Shown here: in pieces, positions 1,650 through 20,088 of the stretch
Layout: each line of letters starts with the position of its first letter
Position numbering within the stretch: position 1 is the stretch's first letter
NCBI GenBank assembly: GCA_003224085.1
Contig: QHYK01000098.1
Span: forward strand, 1 to 58,161
Origin: Acidobacteriota bacterium
Lineage (GTDB): Bacteria > Acidobacteriota > Terriglobia > Acidiferrales > UBA7541
Direction of reading: 5' to 3'
Length of the DNA stretch: 58,161 nucleotides
Made by a program: the position numbers and the translations under genes
The notes under the pieces: model-generated
Databases searched by the model: none
Told to the model about the DNA's origin: nothing
The model's input: only the letters and a program-made list of their open reading frames with translations

Positions 1650-4600
1650 ATGTTTGCCAAATTCAACGCAGTTGTAGCAGTTGTTTTACTTTTGTTGGTT
1701 TCTTCAGTCCCGGCGCGGGCGCAAGTTGCAGGTGCGACCCTGTCCGGCACGGTGACGGACCAGAACGGTTCGGGCGTCCCGAACGCGAGGGTCTCCATAA
1801 AAAACACGGCGACGGGAATCGATCGGGAAGTCACCACGGACAAAGCCGGCTTCTACAGCGCGCCGAACCTCACGCCAGGAAGCTATGACGTCACGATTTC
1901 GGCTCCAGGGTTTTCCACGCAAGTGCAGAAGGACATCACCTTGACTGTCGGAGCTCAGCAGGCATTGAACCCTGTGCTCAAGGTGGGCCAGGTCTCTCAA
2001 CGGATCGAAGTGAGCGGCGAAGCTGCTCAAGTCGAGCTCACCTCGTCCGCGGTCAGCGCCGAGGTCAATGAAACCACCGTTCGCGAGCTGCCCTTGAATG
2101 GACGCGATTGGAGTTCCCTGGCAGTTCTCGAGCCAGGGGTCTTAGGAATTCGGAGTCAGTTGGGGACAACGGGTACAGTCAACAGGGGCAATCGCGGTTT
2201 CGGAAACCAGCTGGCGACTGACGGCCACCGCCCCTCGGAAAACACTTACCGGGTCAATGGGATCAACATTAATGACTATTCCAACGGTTCACCCGGCAGC
2301 GTCGAAGGCAAACAATTGGGCGTGGACGCGATTCAAGAATTTACCGTCGTGACCACCAACTATTCCGCGGAATACGGGCGGACTTCCGGCGCGGTCATTA
2401 ACGCCGTGTTGAAGCAGGGCGCCAACGCTTTCCATGGCGACGTCTATTGGTTTCTCCGTGACGAGGGCCTGGACGCGAAAAACTTCTTCGATACCTCACC
2501 GACCATCGCGCCATTTCATCGCAACCAGTTCGGAGCATCCGCTGGCGGCCCTATTATAAAGAACAAGACTTTCTTTTTCGCCGATTACGAAGGCATCCGC
2601 CAGTCCAGAAGCCTCACCGCCAGAAGTACCGTCCCATCAGTGGCTGCGCGTAACGGGACGCTTTGCTCGCTATGCGCCACACCGATTCCGGTCAGCAGCC
2701 TCCCGGCCAGCATGAATGATACGCCGGCGAATGGCGGCAATGGCACAAACGCGAACGGCATCGACCTTGTCACCGCGAAATATCTCGCTCTGTGGCCGCA
2801 ACCAAACCCGGCTTTGGGCACCAATTCGACTGGGGACTTCGGGTTCGTCGTCACCAACCCCTTGCAGGTTTATACCGAGAACTACGTCACGACCAGGGTT
2901 GACCACAAAATCTCCGAGAAAGACAACCTCGACGGCTTCTATTTCTACGACAAGTCCCCGCAAGTTACCCCGGACAACTTTCTTTTGGCAACTTCGGAGA
3001 CCGTGAGCTCCCGGCAGATGGCTGGCTTGGAAGAAACTCACATTTTCAGCACCGCGCTGGTGAATACCTTCCGTGCGGGTTACAACCGTTCCGTTGGTCT
3101 AGTCGGCAAACCTGGAACCGCGCTGCAGCCGATTGCGGCGGATACCAGTTTGGGCGTGGGTTCGGGGCGAGTTGCGCCGCTCATCTCGATAGGTGGAGGC
3201 ATCTCAACGATGGGTGGCGGGCTGAACTCCTTGGCCCAGTATAACCACATCATGAATTCCTTCCAATATGATGACGACGCGTTCCTCACCCGTGGACTCC
3301 ACGCCATCAAGCTCGGAGGCTTCGTCGAGCGGTTGCAAGGTCATGAATTTACCATTCAGCGGCCTAACGGAACCTTTAGTTTCAACAATTTGCAAGACTT
3401 CCTTACCAACATACCCCACGCCCTCTCTTCCATCGGCAGCACGGCTGTCGGCAAACCCTATGGAGATCGGCTTACCTTCCTCGGGGGCTACGTGCAGGAC
3501 GATTGGAAATTCCGGCCGAACCTGACGCTGAACCTCGGCGTGCGCTACGAGATGGCCACATTGCCCACTGAAGTTCACGGCACTTTGTCGGTCATCCAAA
3601 ACGTATTTGGCGGACCCCGCGTTTCGGTCACTCACCCCTGGCAGTCGAATGCCACGCTCAAGAACTTCGCGCCGCGGGTCGGTTTCGCCTGGGATCCCCG
3701 CCGCGACGGCAAGACTTCCGTCCGCGGCGGCTTCGGAATCTTCGATATCCTGCCAGGTACCTGGATCGGATTTAACCAGGAAACCGGATCCTACCCATAC
3801 GCCCTGACGCTCAGCTTCCCCGGCACGCCACCGGCCTACTCGTTCGCAACTCCTGCAGCCAATTCGATTGGCGCCAACCAGGGCAACCCAACCGCCGCAA
3901 CCATCGCCAACGCGCAGGGATGGGCTCCCGAGCAACACCCCAAGCGCAACTACGCCATGAACTGGAACTTCAACGTCCAGCGCCACCTCACCTCCTCCCT
4001 GACTGCTACGGTCGCCTACGTGGGAATGCACACCGTGCATTCGCCTTTTACCACCGATCAAAGCAATTTTGCCCCTCCGATTTCCGGAACGGACTACTGG
4101 CCGGTGACAAAAGGGACAGTGATCGACCCCAACGTCGGCGCTCTCAGGCCCACCTTCTGGATGGTGAGTTCGCGTTACAAAGGCTTACAGGCGCAAATCT
4201 CGAATAGGATGAGCCACGGTTTCCAGGCTTCCGCCAGCTATACCTACGGCAAATGCTACGACGACACCTCAAGCGGTCTCATCGGCGACCCGTTCCAAAA
4301 CTCGTTCACAACCACGCTCTTCCTTCTGCCCGATAGCAGGCGCGGCCCGTGTGACTTCAACATTACCAACAATTTCGTCGCAAACTTCATCTACAACATC
4401 CCCGGCCCGAAAACAGGGTTGATGTCCTACCTCGCGGGCGGGTGGCAGACTGGCGCAATCGCCACGGTCAGCACGGGCATACCCACTACGCCGTTTATCG
4501 GGGGAGACCCGCTCGGCCTGATCAACGCGGATGCGGTGGTTTATCCAGACTACATTGCCGGCTGCAATCCCGTTAACCCCAATTGGAAGAGCACCATGGT

Positions 4601-5030
4601 CTACATCAACTCGTCCTGCTACACGCCTCCGGTCGCCCCGGCGGCCATCGCTTCGGACCCGACAAAGTGCACTCCCTACGCGAATACAACCGTGGCAAAT
4701 ACCTGCGCGCAGATGTTCGGCAATGCCCTGCGAAATTCGATCGCCGGGCCGTCTTCGTTCAACCTCGACTTCTCCCTCTTCAAGAACTTCGCCGTTCACC
4801 GGATTTCGGAAAGCTTCAACGTTCAATTCAGGGCGGAATTTTTCAATGTCCTGAATCACCCGAACTTCCTGCTTCCGAACTTCAATGAAGGGAACAATCA
4901 GGTCATTGACGGAGGAGCCGTAGCGAGCGCTGGTGGAGCGCCGAGTGGGGCGCCGGTTAACGCCAGGATCGACAGCACCGGAACCTACGACCCACGCCAG
5001 ATTCAGTTTGGCTTGAAGGTAATCTTCTAA
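1650..5030 (+). CDS. TonB-dependent receptor, Oar-like, with carboxypeptidase regulatory-like domain
   Basis: Outer-membrane receptor of 1126 residues. A signal peptide (about residues 1-24, ending ARAQ) precedes an Ig-like carboxypeptidase regulatory domain (about 28-110; SGTVTDQNGSGVPNARV). A plug region follows (RELPLNGRDW near residue 148, then the FGNQLATDGHRPSENTYRVN stretch), then a long beta-barrel with alternating aromatic strands and a C-terminal strand ending in phenylalanine (QIQFGLKVIF). This architecture is heavily expanded in Acidobacteriota. The substrate cannot be told from sequence; the family takes up large or scarce nutrients such as oligosaccharides or peptides. A GA-rich stretch before the ATG (GAGAGG, then GTGAGAGGG) may serve as ribosome site. 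The next plus-strand genes are a secreted propeller and a secreted amidohydrolase, so a scavenging function is plausible. Confidence 0.9.
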   Translation: MFAKFNAVVAVVLLLLVSSVPARAQVAGATLSGTVTDQNGSGVPNARVSIKNTATGIDREVTTDKAGFYSAPNLTPGSYDVTISAPGFSTQVQKDITLTVGAQQALNPVLKVGQVSQRIEVSGEAAQVELTSSAVSAEVNETTVRELPLNGRDWSSLAVLEPGVLGIRSQLGTTGTVNRGNRGFGNQLATDGHRPSENTYRVNGININDYSNGSPGSVEGKQLGVDAIQEFTVVTTNYSAEYGRTSGAVINAVLKQGANAFHGDVYWFLRDEGLDAKNFFDTSPTIAPFHRNQFGASAGGPIIKNKTFFFADYEGIRQSRSLTARSTVPSVAARNGTLCSLCATPIPVSSLPASMNDTPANGGNGTNANGIDLVTAKYLALWPQPNPALGTNSTGDFGFVVTNPLQVYTENYVTTRVDHKISEKDNLDGFYFYDKSPQVTPDNFLLATSETVSSRQMAGLEETHIFSTALVNTFRAGYNRSVGLVGKPGTALQPIAADTSLGVGSGRVAPLISIGGGISTMGGGLNSLAQYNHIMNSFQYDDDAFLTRGLHAIKLGGFVERLQGHEFTIQRPNGTFSFNNLQDFLTNIPHALSSIGSTAVGKPYGDRLTFLGGYVQDDWKFRPNLTLNLGVRYEMATLPTEVHGTLSVIQNVFGGPRVSVTHPWQSNATLKNFAPRVGFAWDPRRDGKTSVRGGFGIFDILPGTWIGFNQETGSYPYALTLSFPGTPPAYSFATPAANSIGANQGNPTAATIANAQGWAPEQHPKRNYAMNWNFNVQRHLTSSLTATVAYVGMHTVHSPFTTDQSNFAPPISGTDYWPVTKGTVIDPNVGALRPTFWMVSSRYKGLQAQISNRMSHGFQASASYTYGKCYDDTSSGLIGDPFQNSFTTTLFLLPDSRRGPCDFNITNNFVANFIYNIPGPKTGLMSYLAGGWQTGAIATVSTGIPTTPFIGGDPLGLINADAVVYPDYIAGCNPVNPNWKSTMVYINSSCYTPPVAPAAIASDPTKCTPYANTTVANTCAQMFGNALRNSIAGPSSFNLDFSLFKNFAVHRISESFNVQFRAEFFNVLNHPNFLLPNFNEGNNQVIDGGAVASAGGAPSGAPVNARIDSTGTYDPRQIQFGLKVIF

Positions 5031-5280: not shown

Positions 5281-6336
5281 ATGAACTTTTCACGATTCGC
5301 ACGTCATGCCTTTGGTCTGCCTTTTCTATTGAGCGGGGTCTGCGCCCTAGCGCTATCGCCAGCGGCGGGCTACCACCTGCTGAAGAAAATTCCTTTCGGT
5401 GCGGCACCGGGCGGTTCTGAATACTTCGATTACATTAACTTCGATAGTGCTGCGCGACGCGTGTACCTCTCCCACGGCACGGAGTTCCTTGTGGTCGAAG
5501 CTGATGCAGGCACGACGGTGGGCACAATCTCTGGTTTGAAGCGGTGCCACGGAGTTGCACTGGTACCCGAGCTTAACCGCGGGTTCATAAGCGACGAAGG
5601 CGCGGGCCAGATCGTCATGATTGATCTGAAAACGCTCAAAACCATCGGCCAGATAAATGGCCAAGAGGACGCCGATTCTATTACTTACGATCCGGCATCA
5701 AAGCATGTATTTGTCTTCAACGGCTCGCCCAAATCCGCAACTGTGATTGATCCCGAGAAGGGCGCCGTGATCGCGACCTTGCCCCTGGGCGGCGCGCCGG
5801 AGCAAGCTGTCGCCGACGGCAAGGGCATGATTTATGACAATCTGATAGACACGAACGAGGTAATCGCGATCGATTCCCGTGATCTCAAGATCAAATCGCG
5901 GTGGCCGGTGGCTCCAGCCGGGCGGCCCGTGTCCATAGCTATGGACACAGTGCACCGGCGGCTGTTCATTGGGGGACGCAATCCCAAGATGCTCGTGGTC
6001 ATGGATGCCGACAGCGGAAGAATCATGGGCGAGCCGTTCCCCATCGGCGACCGTGTTGACACTAACGTATACGATCCCGAAACGGCGTTGATCGCCGCCT
6101 CGACTCGCGAGGGCACGCTCCACATCATTCACGAAGACTCGCCGGACAAGTACAGCGTCGTAGAGACAGTGAAAACTGAGTTTGGCGCCAAGACCATGGG
6201 GCTCGATCGAAAGACACATAACCTATACCTCTCCACATCGGATTTTGGTCCGGCACCGGCCCCTACCACACAACAGCCCAATCCGCAGCCCGTCGCGACC
6301 CCGGGAACTTTTCGCCTACTGATTTATGGGCGCTGA
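5281..6336 (+). CDS. Secreted YncE/YVTN-type beta-propeller protein
   Basis: 351 residues: an N-terminal signal peptide (hydrophobic residues about 9-28, ending LSPAAG) and then repeated blades with the pattern of the YncE/surface-layer YVTN family (FDSAARRVYLSHG, YDPASKHVFVFNG, MDTVHRRLFIGGR, LDRKTHNLYLSTSDF). Such proteins fold as seven-bladed propellers in the periplasm or on the surface and act as binding or scaffold domains; no catalytic residues are evident. The C-terminus ends in a proline-rich stretch (APAPTTQQPNPQP). The ATG follows GGAG. It lies between the TonB receptor and an amidohydrolase on the same strand, which suggests but does not prove a shared role. Confidence 0.8.
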   Translation: MNFSRFARHAFGLPFLLSGVCALALSPAAGYHLLKKIPFGAAPGGSEYFDYINFDSAARRVYLSHGTEFLVVEADAGTTVGTISGLKRCHGVALVPELNRGFISDEGAGQIVMIDLKTLKTIGQINGQEDADSITYDPASKHVFVFNGSPKSATVIDPEKGAVIATLPLGGAPEQAVADGKGMIYDNLIDTNEVIAIDSRDLKIKSRWPVAPAGRPVSIAMDTVHRRLFIGGRNPKMLVVMDADSGRIMGEPFPIGDRVDTNVYDPETALIAASTREGTLHIIHEDSPDKYSVVETVKTEFGAKTMGLDRKTHNLYLSTSDFGPAPAPTTQQPNPQPVATPGTFRLLIYGR

Positions 6337-6432
6337 TGCAGCCGCCAAATCTGGTGGGGACAAGGGCTTCGCGTGGTGTTTTCCATTCGCGGCGTAATCT
6401 CCTCAGGAATAAAAACTGAGTGCAGGCCGAAA

Positions 6433-6460
6433 TTGAAGGCGATAGTCTTAACGCTAAATT
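6433..6460 (+). promoter_or_regulatory. Possible sigma-70-like promoter for the amidohydrolase gene
   Basis: TTGAAG (6433-6438) and TAAATT (6455-6460) are separated by 16 bases and lie 22 bases before the ATG. A strong ribosome site, GGAGG, sits 5 bases before the start. Each box matches consensus at 4 of 6 positions. Inferred from sequence only. Confidence 0.35.
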
Positions 6461-6481
6461 GTAATTTTTAACGGAGGCGAT

Positions 6482-7816
6482 ATGATCCGATCGAAACGCG
6501 TGTTGAACACAGTCCTCTTGATTCTTGCGGGGTCGGCCGTGCTGTCGGCGCAAGCTCCGCAGGTCGTAGCCGTGCGTGCCGGGCGCATGTTCGACCCCAA
6601 GTCCGGCGCAAATCTGACGAATCAAGTGGTGCTCATCAGCGGCGAGCGGATTACGGACGTAGGCCCGGCGGACAGCGTTAAGGTCCCTGGTGGCGCCAGG
6701 GTTATCGACCTTGGCCAGGCGACCGTGCTCCCCGGATTGATTGACGGCCACGTTCACCTCACAGACGCGGCCGGAGGGCTGCAACACCAGATGATGGTGG
6801 CGCTGTACAGCGCCACCCAGAGTTTGAAGGCCGGCTTCACCACTCAAGTAGTTATGGGGACGCATGGTGGGGGTTATGCCGACGTGGAGTTGAAGAAGGC
6901 CATCGAGAGCGGCCTGGTCCAGGGTCCGCGTCTGCTCACGGCTGGCCCAGTGCTCGAGATCACGGCCCCCGCAAACGGCCCCTTCCCGTTGGAATTCAAG
7001 CCGTTTGAACCTTCGTTGATCGCAAATGGAGTGGAGGGGATGCGCGCAGCGGTGCGCGAACTGGCTCACAACGGTGTCGACCACATCAAGATAACCACCA
7101 CTGGCCGGTTCTACTTCAAGCCCAACGGGGAAATGGTGAACACGGCGCTCCCCACTCGGGAAGAACTCAAAGCCGCCGTGGATGAGGCGCACAAACTGGG
7201 TCTATGGGTCGCCACACATTCTTACGGAGGTGACGGTCTAAAATGGGCCATCGAAGCGGGGGTCGACGATGTCCAGCACGCAGTCGCTGCCGACGATGCG
7301 GACATTAAGATGTTCCTCAACAAGGACCTGCCGCTGACCGCGACTACTCTGGACATGCGCCAAGACGAGCCGGGGGACCTGAAGCGCTTTGCTCCTTACA
7401 GCCGTTTTCGCCTGATGGAGCAGACGTGGAAGAAAATGCTTGCCGCCGGTGTGAGACTCGGTTTTGGAAGCGGCTCCGCCCCGCCCCCAGGAAGGGTGTA
7501 TAACACGGAGTGCAACTGTTCGCATGGCGTGCAAGCCGAGATGTTTCCCCTATACATTAAATGGGGGGCGACTCCTGTGTACACCCTGCGTATGGCAACG
7601 ACGGTCGATGCCCAGATTATTCACATGCAGGACAGCCTGGGCACCATCGAAAAGGGCAAGTTCGCCGACATCATCGCAGTCTCGGGAGATCCGCTCCAAG
7701 ACATCACGGAAATGCAACGAATAAAATTTGTGATGAAGGGCGGCGTGGTTGTGCGAAACGATCTGGCACCAGGTGCGATGATGTCCTCGGCGATTGTGAC
7801 TTTGCAAGAAAGATGA
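6482..7816 (+). CDS. Secreted amidohydrolase family protein
   Basis: 444 residues with a signal peptide (about 1-21, ending LSAQA) and the metal-dependent amidohydrolase fold (imidazolonepropionase/prolidase-like branch). The first metal motif is DGHVH (about residue 90). A probable bridging lysine lies in DHIKITTTGR, and further histidines in VATHSYGG and DVQHA. The C-terminus shows the usual small beta domain (GTIEKGKFADIIAVSGDPL). At the position where the family normally has an FGTD-type motif, this protein reads GFGSGSAPP, so the usual aspartate is not obvious; related sequences with FGSG exist as I recall them, so this may be a subfamily trait. Role inferred: hydrolysis of amide or peptide substrates in the periplasm. 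Confidence 0.8.
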   Translation: MIRSKRVLNTVLLILAGSAVLSAQAPQVVAVRAGRMFDPKSGANLTNQVVLISGERITDVGPADSVKVPGGARVIDLGQATVLPGLIDGHVHLTDAAGGLQHQMMVALYSATQSLKAGFTTQVVMGTHGGGYADVELKKAIESGLVQGPRLLTAGPVLEITAPANGPFPLEFKPFEPSLIANGVEGMRAAVRELAHNGVDHIKITTTGRFYFKPNGEMVNTALPTREELKAAVDEAHKLGLWVATHSYGGDGLKWAIEAGVDDVQHAVAADDADIKMFLNKDLPLTATTLDMRQDEPGDLKRFAPYSRFRLMEQTWKKMLAAGVRLGFGSGSAPPPGRVYNTECNCSHGVQAEMFPLYIKWGATPVYTLRMATTVDAQIIHMQDSLGTIEKGKFADIIAVSGDPLQDITEMQRIKFVMKGGVVVRNDLAPGAMMSSAIVTLQER

Positions 7817-8076
7817 TAACGGGTGACAATTAATTGGAAAAAGAGCAGTGCGAATGCAGGAGCGCACACTGCATGGTGCATGGTGTCCCTCCTCTTGATC
7901 TGGCCGCTTCCGTGCTAGCATGACGGATTCGGAAATTAAACTCAGCGGAGGAAATGGGGTTGGCTTTTAGCCGGCCGCGAGGCTCGGTCTTGATTCCCAA
8001 GTAGGAGAACTTTGCCCCTAGAGCTAGGAGTCCTCGTAGACCGCTGCGGCTAAGAGTTGATTCTGTCAAAATCGTC

Positions 8077-9273
8077 ATGATTCATACGGGTCGTCACTTT
8101 CTTCAAATCCCCGGTCCCACGAACGTTCCGGATCGAGTTCTGCGGGCCATGGACCGTCCGGTGATCGACCATCGGGGTCCCGAATTCGCGAAATTGGGCA
8201 AGGAAGTGCTGGAAGGCATGCGCGCGATCTTCCGAACAAGCGGTCCTGTGATCATCTATCCTTCTTCGGGTACCGGAGCCTGCGAAGCGTCCTTAGTGAA
8301 TACACTTTCCCCCGGTGACCGGGTGCTGGTCTTCGAGACTGGACACTTTTCGGGCATCTGGCGGCAGGCTGCGGAAAGGGTCGGCTTGAACGTCGAATAC
8401 GTGCCCGGCAATTGGCGGCGGGGCGCTTCCCCCGCGGACCTGGAAGCCCGGCTGGGTTCGGACCCGCAGCGTACCTTCAAAGCTGTGGTAGTGGTTCACA
8501 ACGAAACCTCAACGGGTGCAACCAGCCGGATCGCCGAGCTTCGGCACATCATGAATCGCCTCCGACATCCGGCGTTGCTAATCGTGGACGCCATCTCTTC
8601 GCTGGCTTGCATTGACTATCGCCACGACGAATGGGAGGTGGACGTCACCGTCTGCGGTTCGCAGAAGGGTTTGATGGTTCCGCCGGGCCTGGGCTTCAAC
8701 GCCGTTTCTGAAAAGGCTCTTTCCGCCAACAAAACTGCCAAATTGCCGAGGTCCTACTGGGACTGGCAGGAAATACTGAAGCACAATCAGGCGGGGTTTT
8801 TCCCCTATACGCCGGCGACCAACCACCTCTACGGTTTGCGGGAAGCCTTGCTCATGCTGCACGAAGAGGGCCTGCCCAACGTTTTCCGTCGGCACGACCG
8901 CCACGGGGAGGCCACACGCGCTGCCGTGCGCGCCTGGGGACTGGCAATTGTTTGCGAAGAGCCTCTAGAGTACTCGAGTTCGATGACCGCGGTCTTCACG
9001 CCCGAGGGCCACAATGCGGATCGGCTACGAGAGATCGTCTTGGAGAATTTTGATATGTCGCTCGGAGCCGGCCTTGGCAAACTCGCAGGCAAGGCATTTC
9101 GCATCGGACACCTGGGCAGCTTCAACGACCTCATGCTCGCCGGAACCCTGAGTGGAGTCGAAATGGGTCTCCGGTTCGCGGGCGTGCCGCACCGCGACGG
9201 TGGTGTCATGGCCGCTCTCGATCACCTCGTCCCGGCTAGTACGAAGTCCGAGCCCGCCCCGGTTGGCAGATGA
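8077..9273 (+). CDS. Class V aminotransferase, serine/alanine-glyoxylate type
   Basis: PLP enzyme of 398 residues expected to transfer an amino group from serine or alanine to glyoxylate, giving glycine. The N-terminus has PGPTNVP, typical of the glyoxylate branch; DAISSLACID contains the PLP-binding aspartate; the Schiff-base lysine is in CGSQKG (about K196). Its length matches the family, which argues against a distant cysteine-desulfurase relative. The ATG has no clear ribosome site. The stop codon overlaps the start of the MFS transporter (ATGA), so the two are translationally coupled. A CoA-ester lyase operon that could generate glyoxylate lies just downstream on the other strand. The amino donor cannot be fixed from sequence. 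Confidence 0.85.
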   Translation: MIHTGRHFLQIPGPTNVPDRVLRAMDRPVIDHRGPEFAKLGKEVLEGMRAIFRTSGPVIIYPSSGTGACEASLVNTLSPGDRVLVFETGHFSGIWRQAAERVGLNVEYVPGNWRRGASPADLEARLGSDPQRTFKAVVVVHNETSTGATSRIAELRHIMNRLRHPALLIVDAISSLACIDYRHDEWEVDVTVCGSQKGLMVPPGLGFNAVSEKALSANKTAKLPRSYWDWQEILKHNQAGFFPYTPATNHLYGLREALLMLHEEGLPNVFRRHDRHGEATRAAVRAWGLAIVCEEPLEYSSSMTAVFTPEGHNADRLREIVLENFDMSLGAGLGKLAGKAFRIGHLGSFNDLMLAGTLSGVEMGLRFAGVPHRDGGVMAALDHLVPASTKSEPAPVGR

Positions 9274-10592
9274 GGGGTGGACAGTTCGCCAGCGAGCCGG
9301 CAGGTTCAGGCAAGTCGCGTTGGATGGTGCTGGTCCTTCTGTGCTTGATGTACCTCATCACTTATCTGGATCGCGTCAGCCTCTCGAATGCCGCCCCACT
9401 CATCAGCCAGGAGTTCGGATTCAGCAAGGCCACGATGGGTGTCATTTTCAGCGCCTTCATTTGGGCCTACGCACTTTTTCAGGTGCCTGGCGGCTGGTTG
9501 GGGGACCGCTTCGGGCCGCGCAAAGTGCTCGCGATCATCATGGCCTATCGGACGGTCATCGCGACACTAACCACCAGAGCGATGGGTTTTTCCTTGTTTT
9601 GGGCCTTCCGCTTCATGCTGGGCGCGGGGGAGGCGGGCGCGTTTCCTACAGCGACGCGCGCTATGCAGATGTGGTTTCCCCGGCAGGAGCGCGGTTTTGT
9701 GCAAGGCGTCACCCACGCTGCGAGCCGATTTGGCGCGGCGATTGGCCCTCCTCTGGCCGTGGCGATGATGATCCACTTCGGTTGGCGGGTCGTATTCTAC
9801 GTTATCGGTTTCATCAGTCTCGTGTGGTCTCTGTTGTTCTCGCTCCTTTATCGCAATACACCGGAGGAGCATAAACTTGTGAGCCTTAGCGAACTCGCTC
9901 TGATTCGCGGAGTTGACGAGAACGGCGTGATCAAGCAGGCGAACGTCCAAAAGCGGCCGACGGTGCCTTGGAAAATCCTCCTGAAACACCCTAATATGTG
10001 GGCGCTGATGTGCGCGTACTTTACCTACTTGTACTGTCTTTGGATCTTCCTCTCCTGGCTGCCGTCCTATCTGGTATCTTACCGCGGGTTCACGCTGCTG
10101 AAGATGGGTTCCTATGCGTCCCTGCCACTCGGGGCCGGTGTGTTGGGCGATGCCGTCGGCGGCTGGCTGACCGACTTCGTGTTGGTCAAAACAGGGAATA
10201 TCAGGTTTGCCCGTCGTTCGGTGGCGATTATGGGGATGCTTGGGTGCGGGAGCTTCATTCTGCCTGCTGCTTTCACGACGAACCCCTACACCGCGGTCTA
10301 CTGCCTGGCGGCCGCGATGTTTTTCCTCGAAACGATCATCGGGCCGTCTTGGGCAGTGCCGATGGACATTGGAGGGGAATACTCCGGCACTGTATCCGGA
10401 ATGATGAACATGGGGGGACAGATCGGTGGGGCGCTGTCGCCTACGGTGTTTGGGATCCTGGTGGCCCGCGGGTCATGGATCGCGCCGTTCGTGGTCGCAG
10501 CCTGCCTGCTCTTCATCGGCGCGGGCATCTGGGTGTTTTGGATCGATCCAGAAGTATCCGTCATCGACAAAGGGAGGGTGATCGCTGCCTGA
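9270..10592 (+). CDS. MFS transporter, anion:cation symporter (ACS) type
   Basis: 440 residues with about 12 membrane segments in two sixes around a central loop (near residues 200-235). The first segment ends in TYLDRVSLSNA, typical of the hexuronate/glucarate/phthalate branch of the ACS family, followed by GWLGDRFGPRKV, the conserved cytoplasmic loop motif between segments 2 and 3. Such proteins import organic anions with protons or sodium. It overlaps the aminotransferase stop by 4 bases and probably shares its transcript. The substrate is presumably an organic acid linked to that enzyme, but this is inference. Confidence 0.85.
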   Translation: MRGGQFASEPAGSGKSRWMVLVLLCLMYLITYLDRVSLSNAAPLISQEFGFSKATMGVIFSAFIWAYALFQVPGGWLGDRFGPRKVLAIIMAYRTVIATLTTRAMGFSLFWAFRFMLGAGEAGAFPTATRAMQMWFPRQERGFVQGVTHAASRFGAAIGPPLAVAMMIHFGWRVVFYVIGFISLVWSLLFSLLYRNTPEEHKLVSLSELALIRGVDENGVIKQANVQKRPTVPWKILLKHPNMWALMCAYFTYLYCLWIFLSWLPSYLVSYRGFTLLKMGSYASLPLGAGVLGDAVGGWLTDFVLVKTGNIRFARRSVAIMGMLGCGSFILPAAFTTNPYTAVYCLAAAMFFLETIIGPSWAVPMDIGGEYSGTVSGMMNMGGQIGGALSPTVFGILVARGSWIAPFVVAACLLFIGAGIWVFWIDPEVSVIDKGRVIAA

Positions 10593-10597
10593 ACTTC

Positions 10598-10620
10598 CGC
10601 GGTAAACTTAACCGCGTTTT
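10598..10620 (+). terminator. Intrinsic terminator after the MFS gene
   Basis: CGCGGT (10598-10603) pairs with ACCGCG (10611-10616) around a 7-base loop and is followed by TTTT. It starts 6 bases after the transporter stop codon and would end the aminotransferase-MFS transcript before the converging operon. Confidence 0.6.
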
Positions 10621-10744
10621 CCCCCACGCTTGCTTAGCACTTTCGTACCGCTCTGCGTCCCGTTGGAACACTCGATGTAGGGTCGGCTGATTTAGCTTTG
10701 CGCTGAGCACCAACTCCGCAAGCGCCAGAGGATGCTTTTGGTCT

Positions 10745-12118
10745 TCACCGCATACCAATTCTTGAAAGCGCGATAAGTGTCAACGTAACCGTGATAGCCC
10801 CGCCTATGCGCGTGGCGACCTGCGCGAAGGGGAAAAGCTCCATGCGCTCAGCAGCGGTTAGAATCATGACGTCACCGGTTCCGCCAAGGCCACTGTGGGT
10901 GGCGTTCACGATCGCCGCGTCGACGGGATACATCCCCAGCCGCCGTCCGACGAAGTAGCCGGTCGCGGTTAGCGAAGAAACCGTCGCGACGATGGTTATT
11001 AGGTTTGCCGGATGAAACGCGGCGACCAGTTCCCGCCACGGAGTCAGCGCGACGGCTGTCGCAAACAAGAGTGGATAAGTCACGGCAGTAACAAAGAATC
11101 GGAACACAACCTGGGCGCCCTTTTCCAGCGTGGAAGGCACGGCATTTGTCATTTTGAGAAGCACGGCAACGAACAGCATGCCGACTGGCGGCGGCAGTCG
11201 GGTGAGTGAATGCAGCAGTACGCCAATCAGATAAACTGTAATCGCCGTAACCCCGCCGGCGGCGACAGTGCCGACGTCGATGGTAGGGGCGTTGGAGTGA
11301 CCGGAGATCTCTTGCGTCTTGGCCGTCATTCTGACGTCATCGCCGATTCCAGGCTGAAGGCGTCCGTTACCTGTCAAATGCGGGTGATGCTTGCCGAGGT
11401 TGTTCAAAAAACCCGAGATCAGGATTGCGGTGAAATTGCCAAAGAAAGCCAGCGGCAATAGCTGTGCAAGCACCTGCCCCTGGTTCTGCCCGAGAATCTC
11501 CGAATAGCCGGCTGAAAGGGGGATCGCTCCCTCTCCCACTCCTCCAGCCATAACCGGAATGACGACAAAAAACAGACTTCGCCGCACTCCGAGTCCAACC
11601 AGGCAGCCTACCCCAACTCCGACAATGATCGCCGCGACCGAGCCGGCCGCCAAAGGCACCACGATTTTGAGGAAGCCCTCAATCATGGACTTGCGATCCA
11701 TGCTCAGGATGCTCCCCACAACGACGACAGTAATGTAAAGGTAGATAAAATTCGTTGAGTTGGTAAATGTGGTGACCGTTTGCACGAGCTGTGATGGGAA
11801 AAAGTGCGCATCCACCAGAAAAGATGGAAGAAAAATGGTAACTAACGCCGCGCCACCCACGTTGCGTAGAACAGGAATACGTTTACCGATCTCGGCGCAC
11901 GTGAAACTGCCGACAACTAATACGGCCATCATCATGTTGATCTCACCATTGATTTTTCCGGTGAGCGTAAAGAAGACAAGGAGCGCGGCCAGAACGAAGT
12001 AGACAGGGAGGGGAATTATTCCGATCCGGATATTCATCAAGGAACGCAAGCCGTCGGGTAAGTGGAAGGTGTCTTGGGGCGCCGGTCTGTCGTTGCCACT
12101 CTGAGCGCTATTCTTCAT
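10745..12118 (-). CDS. 2-hydroxycarboxylate transporter (2HCT/CitS family)
   Basis: 457-residue membrane protein with about 11-12 segments. It carries the two glycine-rich re-entrant loops that define the family: AGGVGEGAIPLS (about residue 190) and HSGLGGTGDVMIL (about residue 408). Characterised members carry citrate, malate or related hydroxy-dicarboxylates with sodium or protons, or by exchange. It is the last gene of a three-gene operon, starting 6 bases after the lyase stop codon; the CoA-transferase and lyase upstream would process the imported acid. The N-terminus (about 35 residues) is hydrophilic. Confidence 0.85.
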   Translation of the reverse strand: MKNSAQSGNDRPAPQDTFHLPDGLRSLMNIRIGIIPLPVYFVLAALLVFFTLTGKINGEINMMMAVLVVGSFTCAEIGKRIPVLRNVGGAALVTIFLPSFLVDAHFFPSQLVQTVTTFTNSTNFIYLYITVVVVGSILSMDRKSMIEGFLKIVVPLAAGSVAAIIVGVGVGCLVGLGVRRSLFFVVIPVMAGGVGEGAIPLSAGYSEILGQNQGQVLAQLLPLAFFGNFTAILISGFLNNLGKHHPHLTGNGRLQPGIGDDVRMTAKTQEISGHSNAPTIDVGTVAAGGVTAITVYLIGVLLHSLTRLPPPVGMLFVAVLLKMTNAVPSTLEKGAQVVFRFFVTAVTYPLLFATAVALTPWRELVAAFHPANLITIVATVSSLTATGYFVGRRLGMYPVDAAIVNATHSGLGGTGDVMILTAAERMELFPFAQVATRIGGAITVTLTLIALSRIGMR

Positions 12119-12124
12119 GGGGTC

Positions 12125-12976
12125 TTATTGACGGGTCTGCTTGGTGAGGAGGGCTCGGGCACGCGCGACCATAGCAATGTCGATCATCTTGCCTTCGAAC
12201 ACACATGCCCCCTTGCCTGCCGACAATGATTCTTCGTATGCCGCGATCATGCGTTTGGCACGATCAATCTCCGCCGCCGAAGGCGAAAAGGCCTCGTTCA
12301 AGATTGGGATGGCGCTTGGATGCACGCAGGTTCCACCGTCGAATCCGAAGGAACGTGCCTCCTTGGCTGCCCTCGCTATGGCCGCTACGTCTCCATATTC
12401 AGCTTGAGATAGCAGGTAACCGAACGACAGCACGCCGGACGCTTTGGCTGCAAAATGCACCATTAGCGTGGGAAACCGAATGACCTCAGGCGTGGGTTGG
12501 GCACCCATCGCGGTGGCCAAATCCTCCGATCCCGTGATTAAACCGAACACTCTGGGCGTCGCCTTAGCCAGAGCGCGTGCATCGAGCATTGCTCCGGGAC
12601 TTTCGATCAAGGGAACAAACATAGTCTTCTGCTTGCGCTTTAGCGACTTTTCAACTTTATCGAGATGTTTCGCCAGCCGCGTCAGTCCGCTTACCTCGCT
12701 CGCCTTGCTAACGAACAACCCGAATGCGCCCGCACGGCAAGCAGCTTCCGCGTCGGCAAGTATCATCTGCTTTTCTGAGTTGATGCGCACGAACACCGTG
12801 GCGCCATTCCGAGAGACCGAGGGGACCGCTTCGGCAAGCCCGTAGCGCGCCTTTTCTTTTTCGCTGGGGGCAACCGAATCCTCCAAGTCCAGGATGATTG
12901 CATCCGCGCCTCGTTGATGCGCTTTGGCGATGAAACGCGAGGAACTCGCGGGTACGTAGAGCAGCGAACGAATCAT
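12125..12976 (-). CDS. HpcH/HpaI (CitE-like) CoA-ester lyase
   Basis: 283 residues, a TIM-barrel aldolase/lyase like CitE, malyl-CoA lyase and citramalyl-CoA lyase. Visible family signatures are SLLYVPASSSRF at the start, ILDLEDSV, FVRIN, and the magnesium ligands in PLIESPGAM (Glu) and GSEDLATAMG (Asp). The reading frame stays open upstream of 12976, but the ATG at 12976 begins the family's normal N-terminus and has AAAGGAG before it, so I chose it. Expected reaction: cleavage of a 3-hydroxyacyl-CoA such as malyl-CoA (acetyl-CoA plus glyoxylate) or citramalyl-CoA (acetyl-CoA plus pyruvate). It follows the CoA-transferase by 52 bases. Confidence 0.85.
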   Translation of the reverse strand: MIRSLLYVPASSSRFIAKAHQRGADAIILDLEDSVAPSEKEKARYGLAEAVPSVSRNGATVFVRINSEKQMILADAEAACRAGAFGLFVSKASEVSGLTRLAKHLDKVEKSLKRKQKTMFVPLIESPGAMLDARALAKATPRVFGLITGSEDLATAMGAQPTPEVIRFPTLMVHFAAKASGVLSFGYLLSQAEYGDVAAIARAAKEARSFGFDGGTCVHPSAIPILNEAFSPSAAEIDRAKRMIAAYEESLSAGKGACVFEGKMIDIAMVARARALLTKQTRQ

Positions 12977-13028
12977 GGGGCTCCTTTTACCGCGACGCTC
13001 AATGAAAACCTGGCCATTCGTCAACCAC

Positions 13029-14270
13029 TTATTCCGGAAGGTTACCCTCGCATGCGATGCTCGACTGGAGCAATTTCTCGTATGCTGCGTCATCGACGCC
13101 AATTTCCCCCAAGATCTCGCGGTTGTGCTCGCCCAGCAAAGGAGCAGGCGTGCGAATCGACGCCGGCGTTCCCATGAATCGCGCCACCGTATGATGCATG
13201 GGTAAAGATTCCATATCCGCATCGGGATAGTCGGCGATTATTTCGCGCTCGATCACATGCGGATCTTCGATAATCTGAGAGATGTCGTAGACCGGGCCGA
13301 TAGTGACCTCGGCCTGCTCGAAGAACGTCACATTTTCCGCTTGGGTCCGCTGGGCGATGAACGCACCAATCAGGGCGTCAAGTTCTTCGGCATGTTTCAC
13401 GCGGTCGGCATTTGTGCGAAAGCGCGGATCGTCCACTAGATCACCCCGGCCAATCGCATGGAACGCGCGTTGCGCCATCTTTTCCGTCGAGGCGGAGAGC
13501 GCCACATAGCCGCTATTCTTGCATGGGTAGACATTGCGCGGCGCGGTAGTGCTGGAGCGGCTTCCCATCCTCTGTTTAACCTTCCCGGTTAGCCGGTAAT
13601 TTGCAGCGTGCGGGCCCAGAATCGCAAACAGAGGGTCCAGAAGAGGAAGATCAATTACCTGTCCACGTCCACCGTTTTTTTCAACCTCACGTAGCGCGAT
13701 CATTGCACCGGCGGCGCCGTACAATCCGGCGACGCCATCGGCGAGATACATAGGAGGCAGCGCCGGCTCCCGGTCGGCAAATCCATTCATCGCTGCGAAG
13801 CCTGACATGGCCTCAATCAGCGTGCCAAAGCCGGGGCGCCGGTGATACGGCCCCGTCTGGCCCCATCCTGAAATGCGGAGAACCACCAGTTTTGGATTGC
13901 GTTTCAGAAGTATCTCCGGCGCCAATCCCATCTTCTCGAGAGTTCCAGGCCGGAAGCTCTCAATGAAGATATGCGCAGAAGGAACCAAGCTAAGCAGCAA
14001 TTCCCGTGCCTCCGGCTTGCGGAGTTCCAGGCACAAACTTTTCTTGTTTCGGGCGTAAATTTTCCAATGCGTGGAAACGCCATTTACACGCCAGGCGCGC
14101 AAAGTGTCGCCGGCAGGTGGTTCGACCTTAATTACCTCAGCGCCGAAGTCACCGAGGACCTGCGTCAGTAGATTGCCGGCGAATAGACGCGACAAATCGA
14201 GCACGCGAAGCCCCGCCAGGGTGCCGCGGGCATCCGGCGTGTACTTGCGTTTCTTCAACGGCGGCTTCAT
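13029..14270 (-). CDS. CaiB/BaiF family class III CoA-transferase
   Basis: 413 residues. The N-terminal nucleotide-fold signature GLRVLDLSRLFAGNL and GAEVIKVE, the motif FRPGTLEKMGL, and the catalytic aspartate in YLADGVAGLYGA identify a class III (formyl-CoA transferase-like) enzyme, which moves CoA between carboxylic acids through an aspartyl-CoA intermediate. I start at the ATG at 14270, preceded by CGGAG with 7-base spacing; a GTG five codons earlier (14285) is possible. It is the first gene of the operon with the lyase and the 2HCT transporter, so succinyl-CoA:malate or succinyl-CoA:citramalate CoA-transferase activity is the natural guess; the exact acid is not readable from sequence. 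Confidence 0.85.
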   Translation of the reverse strand: MKPPLKKRKYTPDARGTLAGLRVLDLSRLFAGNLLTQVLGDFGAEVIKVEPPAGDTLRAWRVNGVSTHWKIYARNKKSLCLELRKPEARELLLSLVPSAHIFIESFRPGTLEKMGLAPEILLKRNPKLVVLRISGWGQTGPYHRRPGFGTLIEAMSGFAAMNGFADREPALPPMYLADGVAGLYGAAGAMIALREVEKNGGRGQVIDLPLLDPLFAILGPHAANYRLTGKVKQRMGSRSSTTAPRNVYPCKNSGYVALSASTEKMAQRAFHAIGRGDLVDDPRFRTNADRVKHAEELDALIGAFIAQRTQAENVTFFEQAEVTIGPVYDISQIIEDPHVIEREIIADYPDADMESLPMHHTVARFMGTPASIRTPAPLLGEHNREILGEIGVDDAAYEKLLQSSIACEGNLPE

Positions 14271-14285
14271 GAGATGGCTCCGCAC

Positions 14286-20006: not shown

Positions 20007-20088
20007 TTGGCATCGCGGGCATGAAATTCGCAGCGGCCTTGCAGCAGTTTGATTACGGCCCGCTGTGTTAAGGAAGGGTGGATCTGCC

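Follow-up and report, generated by a model that had tools for sequence, protein, structure and literature searches.

Malyl-CoA lyases, which act in the serine and ethylmalonyl-CoA pathways, are among the enzymes closest to the lyase studied here. PMC3832036 gives the catalytic set of the R. sphaeroides enzyme as Glu44, Asp45, Arg76, Glu141, Asp168 and Asp299, and describes for malyl-CoA lyases a conserved Trp near the oxo acid and an insertion that follows strand 6 of the barrel (residues 167-197 of the R. sphaeroides protein). PMC6689899 states that bioinformatics alone cannot assign function within the CitE-like family, and that the citramalyl-CoA lyase studied there shows weak malyl-CoA activity as well. 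In the citramalyl-CoA-cleaving route, a CoA-transferase acts together with a CitE-like lyase. Among 2HCT carriers, CitS contacts citrate through Asn186, Arg402 and Arg428, according to PMC4718727. The aspartate:glyoxylate aminotransferase BhcA belongs to the beta-hydroxyaspartate cycle.

We analysed one locus in a stretch of 58,161 nucleotides from an Acidobacteriota bacterium (the window). The preliminary description had placed five genes here, and we found all of them as intact open frames at the positions it gave (Table 1), with family scores far above chance (E-values of 9e-133 for the 2HCT carrier, 3e-116 for the CoA-transferase, 2e-30 for the lyase and 3e-21 for the aminotransferase). 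The minus-strand operon has gaps of 52 bases between CoA-transferase and lyase and of 6 bases between lyase and carrier, the aminotransferase and MFS genes overlap by 4 bases, and 152 bases separate the converging stop codons of the two sets. The family scan assigned other neighbours to the amidohydrolase and beta-propeller families. A scan for promoters and terminators returned three sites of each, against 2.9 and 7.8 expected.

Table 1. Genes of the locus, with positions in the window.
Gene	Position	Strand	Family	Start
Family III CoA-transferase	13029..14285	-	PF02515	GTG 14285; ATG 14270 possible
CitE-like lyase	12125..12976	-	PF03328	ATG 12976 likely, preceded by AGGAG; mechanical ORF start 13222 too far upstream
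2HCT carrier	10745..12118	-	PF03390	
Class V aminotransferase	8077..9273	+	PF00266	
MFS carrier	9270..10592	+	PF07690	

We favour, with a probability of about 0.58, a reading of the locus as two neighbouring, converging modules, one for citramalate cleavage and the other a separate glyoxylate-to-glycine pair, over a reading as one pathway. The gene families, the intact catalytic residues, the recurring neighbourhoods and the phylogeny are observed; the substrates, the CoA donor, the transport direction and both pathway readings are inferred.

The 2HCT carrier matched PF03390 over positions 1-414 of the 415 of the profile (443.3 bits) and is related to the CitS structures 5a1s, 5x9r and 9lsh. 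It shares with the CitS/CimH carriers two GGxG motifs and the equivalent of Arg428, but alignment and motifs place Val and Leu at the equivalents of Asn186 and Arg402, and its scores were below the CCS and CitS cut-offs. With two of the three citrate-site residues replaced, we rejected its assignment to CitS. Its predicted role is uptake of the substrate of the operon. The CoA-transferase matched PF02515 over its full length (388.8 bits, positions 1-366 of 366). Its best NCBIfam models were those for succinate-glutarate (245.9 bits), oxalate (181.2 bits) and succinyl-CoA:mesaconate (176.2 bits) CoA-transferases, all below their cut-offs, and its closest solved chain was 9br6, a succinate--hydroxymethylglutarate CoA-transferase. 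The enzyme probably loads CoA onto a hydroxy-dicarboxylate, with succinyl-CoA or acetyl-CoA as putative donor.

The lyase has the fold of the malyl-CoA lyases and, when aligned to 4l9y, all of their catalytic residues, a set that is not specific to these enzymes; E33, D34, R65, E126, D153 and D267 were invariant in the alignment (numbering of alignments A1 and A2, where the start Met counts as residue 2). It differs from malyl-CoA lyases in both other features. Their Trp is replaced by Thr217 (GGTCVHP, against GKWAIHP in 5ugr and 4l9y), a position held by Thr, Ser, Ala or Gly in 20 other aligned lyases and by Ser in E. coli CitE; by our own mapping, we equated this aligned Trp with the malyl-CoA lyase Trp treated in PMC3832036 (Trp257 in the haloarchaeal malate synthase). 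The region of the insertion, taken by coordinates between matched stretches, has 30 residues, against 47 in 4l9y and 53 in 5ugr. The comparison of the active site with malyl-CoA lyases, which the preliminary description called for, speaks in part against its pathway, since the Trp and the insertion are lacking; residues of this kind do not, however, prove a substrate (PMC6689899).

We found no enzyme of known substrate within the clade of this lyase. Against a citramalyl-CoA reading, its best match among solved chains was the malyl-CoA lyase 5ugr (115.9 bits, with CLYBL at 100.7), and its structure model (pLDDT 91.2) was tied between human CLYBL (Z 33.8) and the R. sphaeroides malyl-CoA lyase (Z 32.9), so that a ranking of the modelled fold cannot separate citramalyl-CoA from malyl-CoA lyases. 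The best NCBIfam model was citE (TIGR01588), at 144.1 bits for a cut-off of 443.4, and the RipC/Ccl model NF038242 gave 128.6 bits for a cut-off of 375. In E. coli citD and citF adjoin citE; here the genes of a family III CoA-transferase and of a 2HCT carrier hold the neighbouring places. We rejected three assignments: to the malyl-CoA lyases, whose Trp and insertion are lacking; to CitE, given the TIGR01588 score and scanned neighbours other than citD and citF; and to RipC/Ccl, given the NF038242 score. The protein is probably a C-C lyase of a beta-hydroxyacyl-CoA, of citramalyl-CoA type. Because it lacks the Trp and the insertion of malyl-CoA lyases, citramalyl-CoA, which would give acetyl-CoA and pyruvate, is a likelier substrate than malyl-CoA.

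Citryl-CoA is a very unlikely substrate. Imported citrate would receive CoA by transfer and be split into acetyl-CoA and oxaloacetate, amounting to an ATP-free citrate lyase that needs no acyl carrier protein. This would suit the rank of the citE model, a Thr where E. coli CitE has Ser, and the citrate carriers within the 2HCT family, but the citE cut-off is not reached, citD and citF are not among the scanned neighbours, and two of the residues through which CitS binds citrate (PMC4718727), Asn186 and Arg402, are missing from the carrier.

The three genes of the operon recur together. A plasmid of Methylobacterium sp. NMS14P carries the triad (2HCT carrier 65%, CoA-transferase 69%, with a 33% lyase between them), as does a genome of the same phylum, G290 (50%, 56% and 31%, respectively). 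The aminotransferase is absent from the whole Methylobacterium plasmid. Of 297 genomes of the phylum, 20 have an aminotransferase orthologue (E 1e-140), and G290 does not belong to them. Because the triad recurs in both without the aminotransferase, the minus-strand CoA-transferase/lyase/2HCT operon is a unit of its own. Across 16 related loci, 12 had the CoA-transferase (at least 52%) and the lyase in the same locus, side by side in 11 and 4 kb apart in L041, and none had the aminotransferase. The preliminary description had joined the aminotransferase to the operon and had named orthologous operons without it as evidence to the contrary; the same loci, plasmid and genome are of that kind and do not support the link.

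A carrier search (E up to 1e-110) through the class to which the Rhodoplanes genome belongs gave matches in 3 of 385 genomes, in 4.3-kb loci without CoA-transferase or lyase, and two plasmid records with the carrier outside Methylobacterium had no relative of either enzyme in their 17-kb stretches. The lyase of the operon seems to have been exchanged for a Rhizobiales-type one. The lyase tree was built without two long-branched sequences, E. coli CitE and L010, and the CoA-transferase tree without L032 and L033; versions including them were also made. The lyases of L034, L036 and L040 and the 43% lyase of L033 are in no tree (L033 is represented by a second, 28% lyase), nor is the CoA-transferase of L036.

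In L032 and L040, the locus that holds the lyase homologue also contains a FAS1-dehydratase-like hydratase, as well as another CoA-transferase, which speaks for the citramalyl-CoA reading. This gene composition would correspond to an itaconate/mesaconate-type set, a label of our own; the hydratase and CoA-transferase of L032 scored below every curated NCBIfam cut-off. The citramalyl-CoA-cleaving route has the chemistry proposed here and a hydratase-like gene beside two homologues of our lyase, whereas the scanned genes of our operon include no hydratase and have the 2HCT carrier in its place.

The plus-strand pair has other associations. The best curated model for the aminotransferase was BhcA (NF045640), at 427.4 bits for a cut-off of 650, and we rejected its assignment to BhcA on this score; two orthologues paired with an oxidase scored 455.3 and 463.9 bits. 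Its best solved relative was 6pk1 (E 6.7e-108), a chain named serine--glyoxylate aminotransferase. These are its closest curated and solved relatives, but the scanned neighbours are not other bhc genes. The earlier label of a glyoxylate-using type is therefore a fair description, since the best curated model is BhcA and the best solved relative a serine--glyoxylate aminotransferase. The enzyme probably uses an amino acid and glyoxylate, in a module separate from the minus-strand operon. The MFS carrier, whose best NCBIfam model was TIGR00893 (2A0114; 274.7 bits, cut-off 395), is probably of the anion:cation symporter type, and MFS genes 37-39% identical to it adjoin the orthologous aminotransferase in three loci (L049, L050 and L167).

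Orthologues of the aminotransferase in the same phylum and in Proteobacteria often lie beside an FAD/Fe-S oxidase of about 970-1000 residues related to GlcD/YdiJ. Within the phylum, the oxidase was matched in 14 of the 20 genomes that have the aminotransferase but in 55 of the 277 that lack it (Fisher p 5e-6), and in 10 of the 20 the two genes shared a contig and lay no more than 6.7 kb apart. In proteobacterial genomes (ten, including one Betaproteobacteria and one classed only as Proteobacteria) the oxidase was within 2.5 kb in nine of ten loci. This pairing fits a route in which a hydroxy acid is oxidised to glyoxylate, which then becomes glycine. The aminotransferase gene is followed in G024 and G002 by the MFS gene and then the oxidase gene; here the operon comes after the MFS gene instead. 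The oxidase was not found in the genome of this locus and was present in all eight other genomes of the phylum compared, seven of which had been picked because they carry the aminotransferase, whole or as a fragment. Five further genomes with the aminotransferase gave no oxidase match, with two candidates per genome scored; in one of them, G102, FAD-oxidase_C matched within a 1003-residue frame. At a distance of 4 kb, the Methylobacterium operon has an MFS gene and a distant relative of the oxidase (32% over 580 residues). This proximity and the missing usual oxidase speak for the preliminary description. Elsewhere, this genome encodes GlcD- and GlcE-like genes (contig C2) and malate synthase (C13).

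All five genes could form one pathway, in which malate or methylmalate would be taken up and converted to its CoA ester. Cleavage of the ester would yield acetyl-CoA or propionyl-CoA together with glyoxylate, the latter becoming glycine, with the operon replacing the oxidase as glyoxylate source. The adjacency and convergence of the gene sets, the glyoxylate type of the aminotransferase, the oxidase missing here and present in the eight other genomes, the operon in the place that the oxidase has in G024 and G002, and the oxidase relative and MFS gene near the Methylobacterium operon are all consistent with this. We nevertheless consider it unlikely: the lyase lacks two malyl-CoA lyase features, the aminotransferase is in none of the 16 related loci and has no orthologue at E 1e-140 alongside the G290 triad, and the GlcD/GlcE-like enzymes and malate synthase could make and use glyoxylate. 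Of the malyl-CoA pathway with built-in glyoxylate disposal envisaged earlier, the logic of uptake, CoA ester formation and cleavage is supported, as is the aminotransferase type; the link between the two halves is not. It is quite unlikely that, in this lineage, the operon took over from the oxidase as glyoxylate source for the aminotransferase-MFS pair by means of a CitE-like lyase, not itself a malyl-CoA lyase, acting on malyl-, methylmalyl- or tartryl-CoA. Tartrate in particular is a highly improbable substrate. Its CoA-transferase product, tartryl-CoA, would be split into glycolyl-CoA and glyoxylate, and the latter turned into glycine, which by pure inference would account both for the polar Thr/Ser of the pocket and for the way in which relatives link the aminotransferase with GlcD-type oxidases. 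Yet no residue evidence points to it, both other 2HCT triads have no aminotransferase nearby, and we know of no tartryl-CoA-cleaving enzyme of this kind.

Under the favoured two-module reading, the 2HCT carrier would bring in a 2-hydroxydicarboxylate, of which citramalate is the most likely. The family III CoA-transferase would form the CoA ester of this acid, taking the CoA in exchange from another acyl-CoA, and the CitE-like lyase would release acetyl-CoA together with a 2-oxo acid that is most likely pyruvate. On the plus strand, the MFS carrier would bring in a small hydroxy or keto acid, e.g., glycolate, and the aminotransferase would turn glyoxylate into glycine. The glyoxylate would come from the fused FAD/Fe-S oxidase in relatives and, here, perhaps from the GlcD/GlcE-like enzymes encoded elsewhere.

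Among the titles and abstract beginnings listed from the open-licence literature (for two queries, the first 20 of 1,763 and 12 of 339 papers), we found no paper on the three-gene operon or on the aminotransferase-oxidase pair. The analysis defines an uncommon, uncharacterised operon that joins a 2HCT carrier to a family III CoA-transferase and a CitE-like lyase and has two relatives. It also shows that, in two phyla, a glyoxylate-type aminotransferase is repeatedly paired with a fused FAD/Fe-S hydroxy-acid oxidase. Knowledge of the substrates would allow the assignment of two bacterial gene sets at present labelled merely "CoA ester lyase" and "aminotransferase class V".

The aminotransferase, its MFS carrier and the three genes of the operon are present and placed as the preliminary description had them, on one complete contig of a 6.8 Mb genome (159 contigs, 97% complete), and a reading of the proteins fits Acidobacteriota as the phylum. 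The operon is compact, with an AGGAG ahead of the lyase start; the MFS gene shares its first four bases with the end of the aminotransferase gene. Further along, two large SNF2-type helicase-like genes lie ~3 kb apart; by eye, the first of them and the gene that follows the second each have a SWIM-like zinc motif.

Genes of the window discussed in the text
Feature	Coordinates	Strand	Position	Basis
Large protein that reads like a TonB-dependent receptor (putative)	1650-5030	+	upstream of aminotransferase	reading of sequence
Gene with weak beta-propeller matches	5281-6336	+	upstream of aminotransferase	family search
Amidohydrolase family gene	6482-7816	+	upstream of aminotransferase	family search
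Class V aminotransferase	8077-9273	+	converging on operon	
MFS carrier	9270-10592	+	converging on operon	
2HCT carrier	start 12118	-	operon	
CitE-like lyase	start 12976, stop 12125	-	operon	
Family III CoA-transferase	stop 13029	-	operon	
SNF2-type helicase-like gene	20065-22842			read by eye
SNF2-type helicase-like gene	25804-28512			read by eye

The five genes had been taken for one set, and this did not hold. A pattern scan of species genomes with the lyase gave 17 loci, the nearest (62%) in a Rhodoplanes MAG. We compared the ten best (L032-L041), five plasmid loci (L063-L067) and G290 (L089), the only other of 297 genomes of the phylum with a close CoA-transferase relative (E up to 1e-110). 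None of these 16 loci, some of them short (L037, 8.0 kb; L040, 9.1 kb), contained the aminotransferase, nor was it seen in the seven scan loci left out of the count (30-32% identical, or contig-end fragments). CoA-transferase (at least 52% identical) and lyase shared a locus in 12 of the 16, adjoining in 11 and with 4 kb between them in L041; two of the 16 loci have the 2HCT carrier. Among 60 relatives, the lyase had matches in only six genomes (28-33% identity) and the carrier in none. Plasmid records held Rhizobiales lyases of up to 62% identity, and a plasmid of Methylobacterium sp. NMS14P (L063) encodes a carrier and a CoA-transferase 65% and 69% identical to those of the window. Carrier, lyase and CoA-transferase occur together in three places, window included, in differing gene orders. 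Given the counts across the 16 loci, these three genes are a unit of which the aminotransferase is no part, and CoA-transferase with lyase makes up a more widespread core. Of the 297 genomes, 20 have an aminotransferase orthologue; G290, which has the triad, is not one of them, and a search of the NMS14P plasmid gave no aminotransferase at E 1e-100. In two other plasmid loci (L064, 90-9843; L065, 94-9840), CoA-transferase and lyase end a run of ABC sugar transporter genes that also holds two ADP-ribosylglycohydrolase family proteins.

The lyase has a history of its own. It is 55-63% identical to lyases of Sinorhizobium, Ensifer, Aureimonas and Rhodoplanes; those of NMS14P and G290 share 46% identity, but with the window's lyase only 33 and 30%, respectively. 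The window's CoA-transferase groups with those of NMS14P, Roseomonas and G290 (support 82/95). Forcing it to the Rhizobiales CoA-transferases was rejected (p-AU 0.0087), as was forcing the lyase to those of NMS14P and G290 (p-AU 5e-6), both values being optimistic since the constraint groups were picked after identities and a first tree had been seen. The plain reading of these sequences is that a related lyase probably took the place of the original one, with carrier and CoA-transferase retained; the two lyase types would then probably act on the same or a similar substrate.

Compared with malyl-CoA lyases, whose reaction had been proposed as the glyoxylate source, the lyase keeps all six superfamily residues named in PMC3832036, and these are invariant, but the malyl-CoA lyase Trp and insertion are absent. 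That Trp crowds the methyl group of pyruvate. Its site, as mapped here, reads GKWAIHP in two aligned malyl-CoA lyases and GGTCVHP in the window (human CLYBL, GKQVIHP; RipC, AKAAIHP; E. coli CitE, GKSLINP); the insertion region has 30 residues against 47 and 53. Both absences argue against placing the enzyme among the malyl-CoA lyases proper. Some malyl-CoA activity would be compatible, because an (S)-citramalyl-CoA lyase of the family shows it weakly according to PMC6689899, which also calls function assignment by bioinformatics alone unreliable in this family. The top-scoring solved chain by sequence is a malyl-CoA lyase, and the predicted model (mean pLDDT 91.2, nine sequences) is equally close in fold to CLYBL and malyl-CoA lyases.

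The carrier aligns with CitS over most of its length. CitS holds citrate by Arg402, Arg428, Asn186 and Ser405, among others (PMC4718727); the carrier keeps Arg428 and has Thr for Ser405, but Asn186 is replaced by Val and Arg402 by Leu. Six carrier relatives, with or without the operon, have Val at the Asn186 site and Leu, Ala or Gln at the Arg402 site. These differences speak for a substrate other than citrate. In the NMS14P plasmid, the 2HCT, lyase and CoA-transferase genes are followed (L063, 11248-13664) by a lactonase-like amidohydrolase (PF04909) and a MmgE/PrpD frame that the gene list lacks. Itaconate clusters comprise CoA-transferase, hydratase and (S)-citramalyl-CoA lyase, and in saprophytes also a MmgE/PrpD isomerase (PMC12290011); by this analogy, the shared MmgE/PrpD may be a further hint of branched C5 dicarboxylates.

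The aminotransferase keeps different company. Full-length orthologues (64-75% identity) occur in six of the 60 relatives, with no operon-type lyase or CoA-transferase beside them in the stretches examined (in G059 the gene is at a contig end). Its frequent neighbour is an oxidase of ~970-1000 residues with GlcD-like FAD, 4Fe-4S and CCG domains. The aminotransferase of G024 and G002 is followed first by an MFS gene and then by the oxidase (~990 residues). G017 and G029 have the oxidase immediately after the aminotransferase, as two frames in the case of G029, and G054 and G059 carry it on a different contig. Its best model is the D-2-hydroxyglutarate dehydrogenase YdiJ (502 bits, cut-off 1350), then GlcD, scores that pick out no single substrate for this putative hydroxy-acid oxidase. 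Of the 297 genomes, 20 have the aminotransferase (E up to 1e-140) and 69 the oxidase (E up to 1e-100, at most two candidates scored per genome), with 14 having both. The oxidase is thus in 14 of 20 genomes with the aminotransferase against 55 of 277 without (Fisher p 5e-6, genomes counted regardless of shared ancestry); in ten of the 20 both lie on one contig, at most 6.7 kb apart. Five aminotransferase genomes besides the window's lacked an oxidase match: G102 has a FAD-oxidase_C match in a 1003-residue frame, and the other four have shorter or fragmentary matches (frames up to 560 residues, and one weak match in a 913-residue frame). Ten of 11 proteobacterial genomes with a lyase relative (titled Alpha-, Beta- or unplaced Proteobacteria) have the aminotransferase, and at nine of these ten loci the oxidase is no more than 2.5 kb away (the exception is the 7.7-kb contig L093). 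Also nearby are TRAP or other carriers, and family III CoA-transferases accompanied by crotonases (L068, L070, L166, L176). On the NMS14P plasmid, an MFS gene and one with the annotation FAD-binding and (Fe-S)-binding protein end ~4 kb from the carrier; a further MFS gene and regulators of the IclR and LysR types lie in between. The FAD/Fe-S protein is 32% identical to the oxidase over 580 residues, so the triad has been seen once in the vicinity of this general type of oxidase, but not of the aminotransferase.

Loci of the window's phylum, and of Proteobacteria, with the aminotransferase near such an oxidase are L049, L050, L051, L053, L069, L070, L090-L092, L094-L099, L171-L174 and L176, some with crotonase, family III CoA-transferase, TRAP or MFS carriers close by. 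Two genomes from the window's genus (L051, 10428-14573; L053, 5090-9273) encode a MmgE/PrpD protein, an isocitrate/isopropylmalate-dehydrogenase-type enzyme and an MFS carrier divergently from the pair. Contig C303 of G032 has an oxidase match covering 978 residues of the query (5736-8663) and, beside it, only 41 residues matching the aminotransferase near its C-terminus (5499-5621), perhaps a remnant.

A single pathway joining operon and aminotransferase would gain from the lack of an oxidase match in the window's genome, where none of the 16 candidates, all of them scored, reached 1e-40, when the other ten genomes or records of that search, most picked for carrying the aminotransferase, have it. 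Against this, the genome holds a GlcD-like gene with an adjacent GlcE-like gene (C2) and another GlcD-like gene (C129), all three labelled from score and frame length; C13 has a match to the malate synthase family. Even without the operon, glyoxylate should therefore be both formed and consumed, and we consider the joined pathway unlikely.

We favour two modules, at a probability of about 0.58 for this reading as a whole. The operon would import a 2-hydroxydicarboxylate, transfer CoA onto it and cleave a C-C bond to give a 2-oxo acid and acetyl-CoA, with citramalate as the likeliest substrate and pyruvate as the 2-oxo acid. Independently, the aminotransferase would turn glyoxylate into glycine; in the literature examined, the closest precedent for such an enzyme is the bhcA-containing cluster of Paracoccus, described with glycolate oxidase in PMC11323563.
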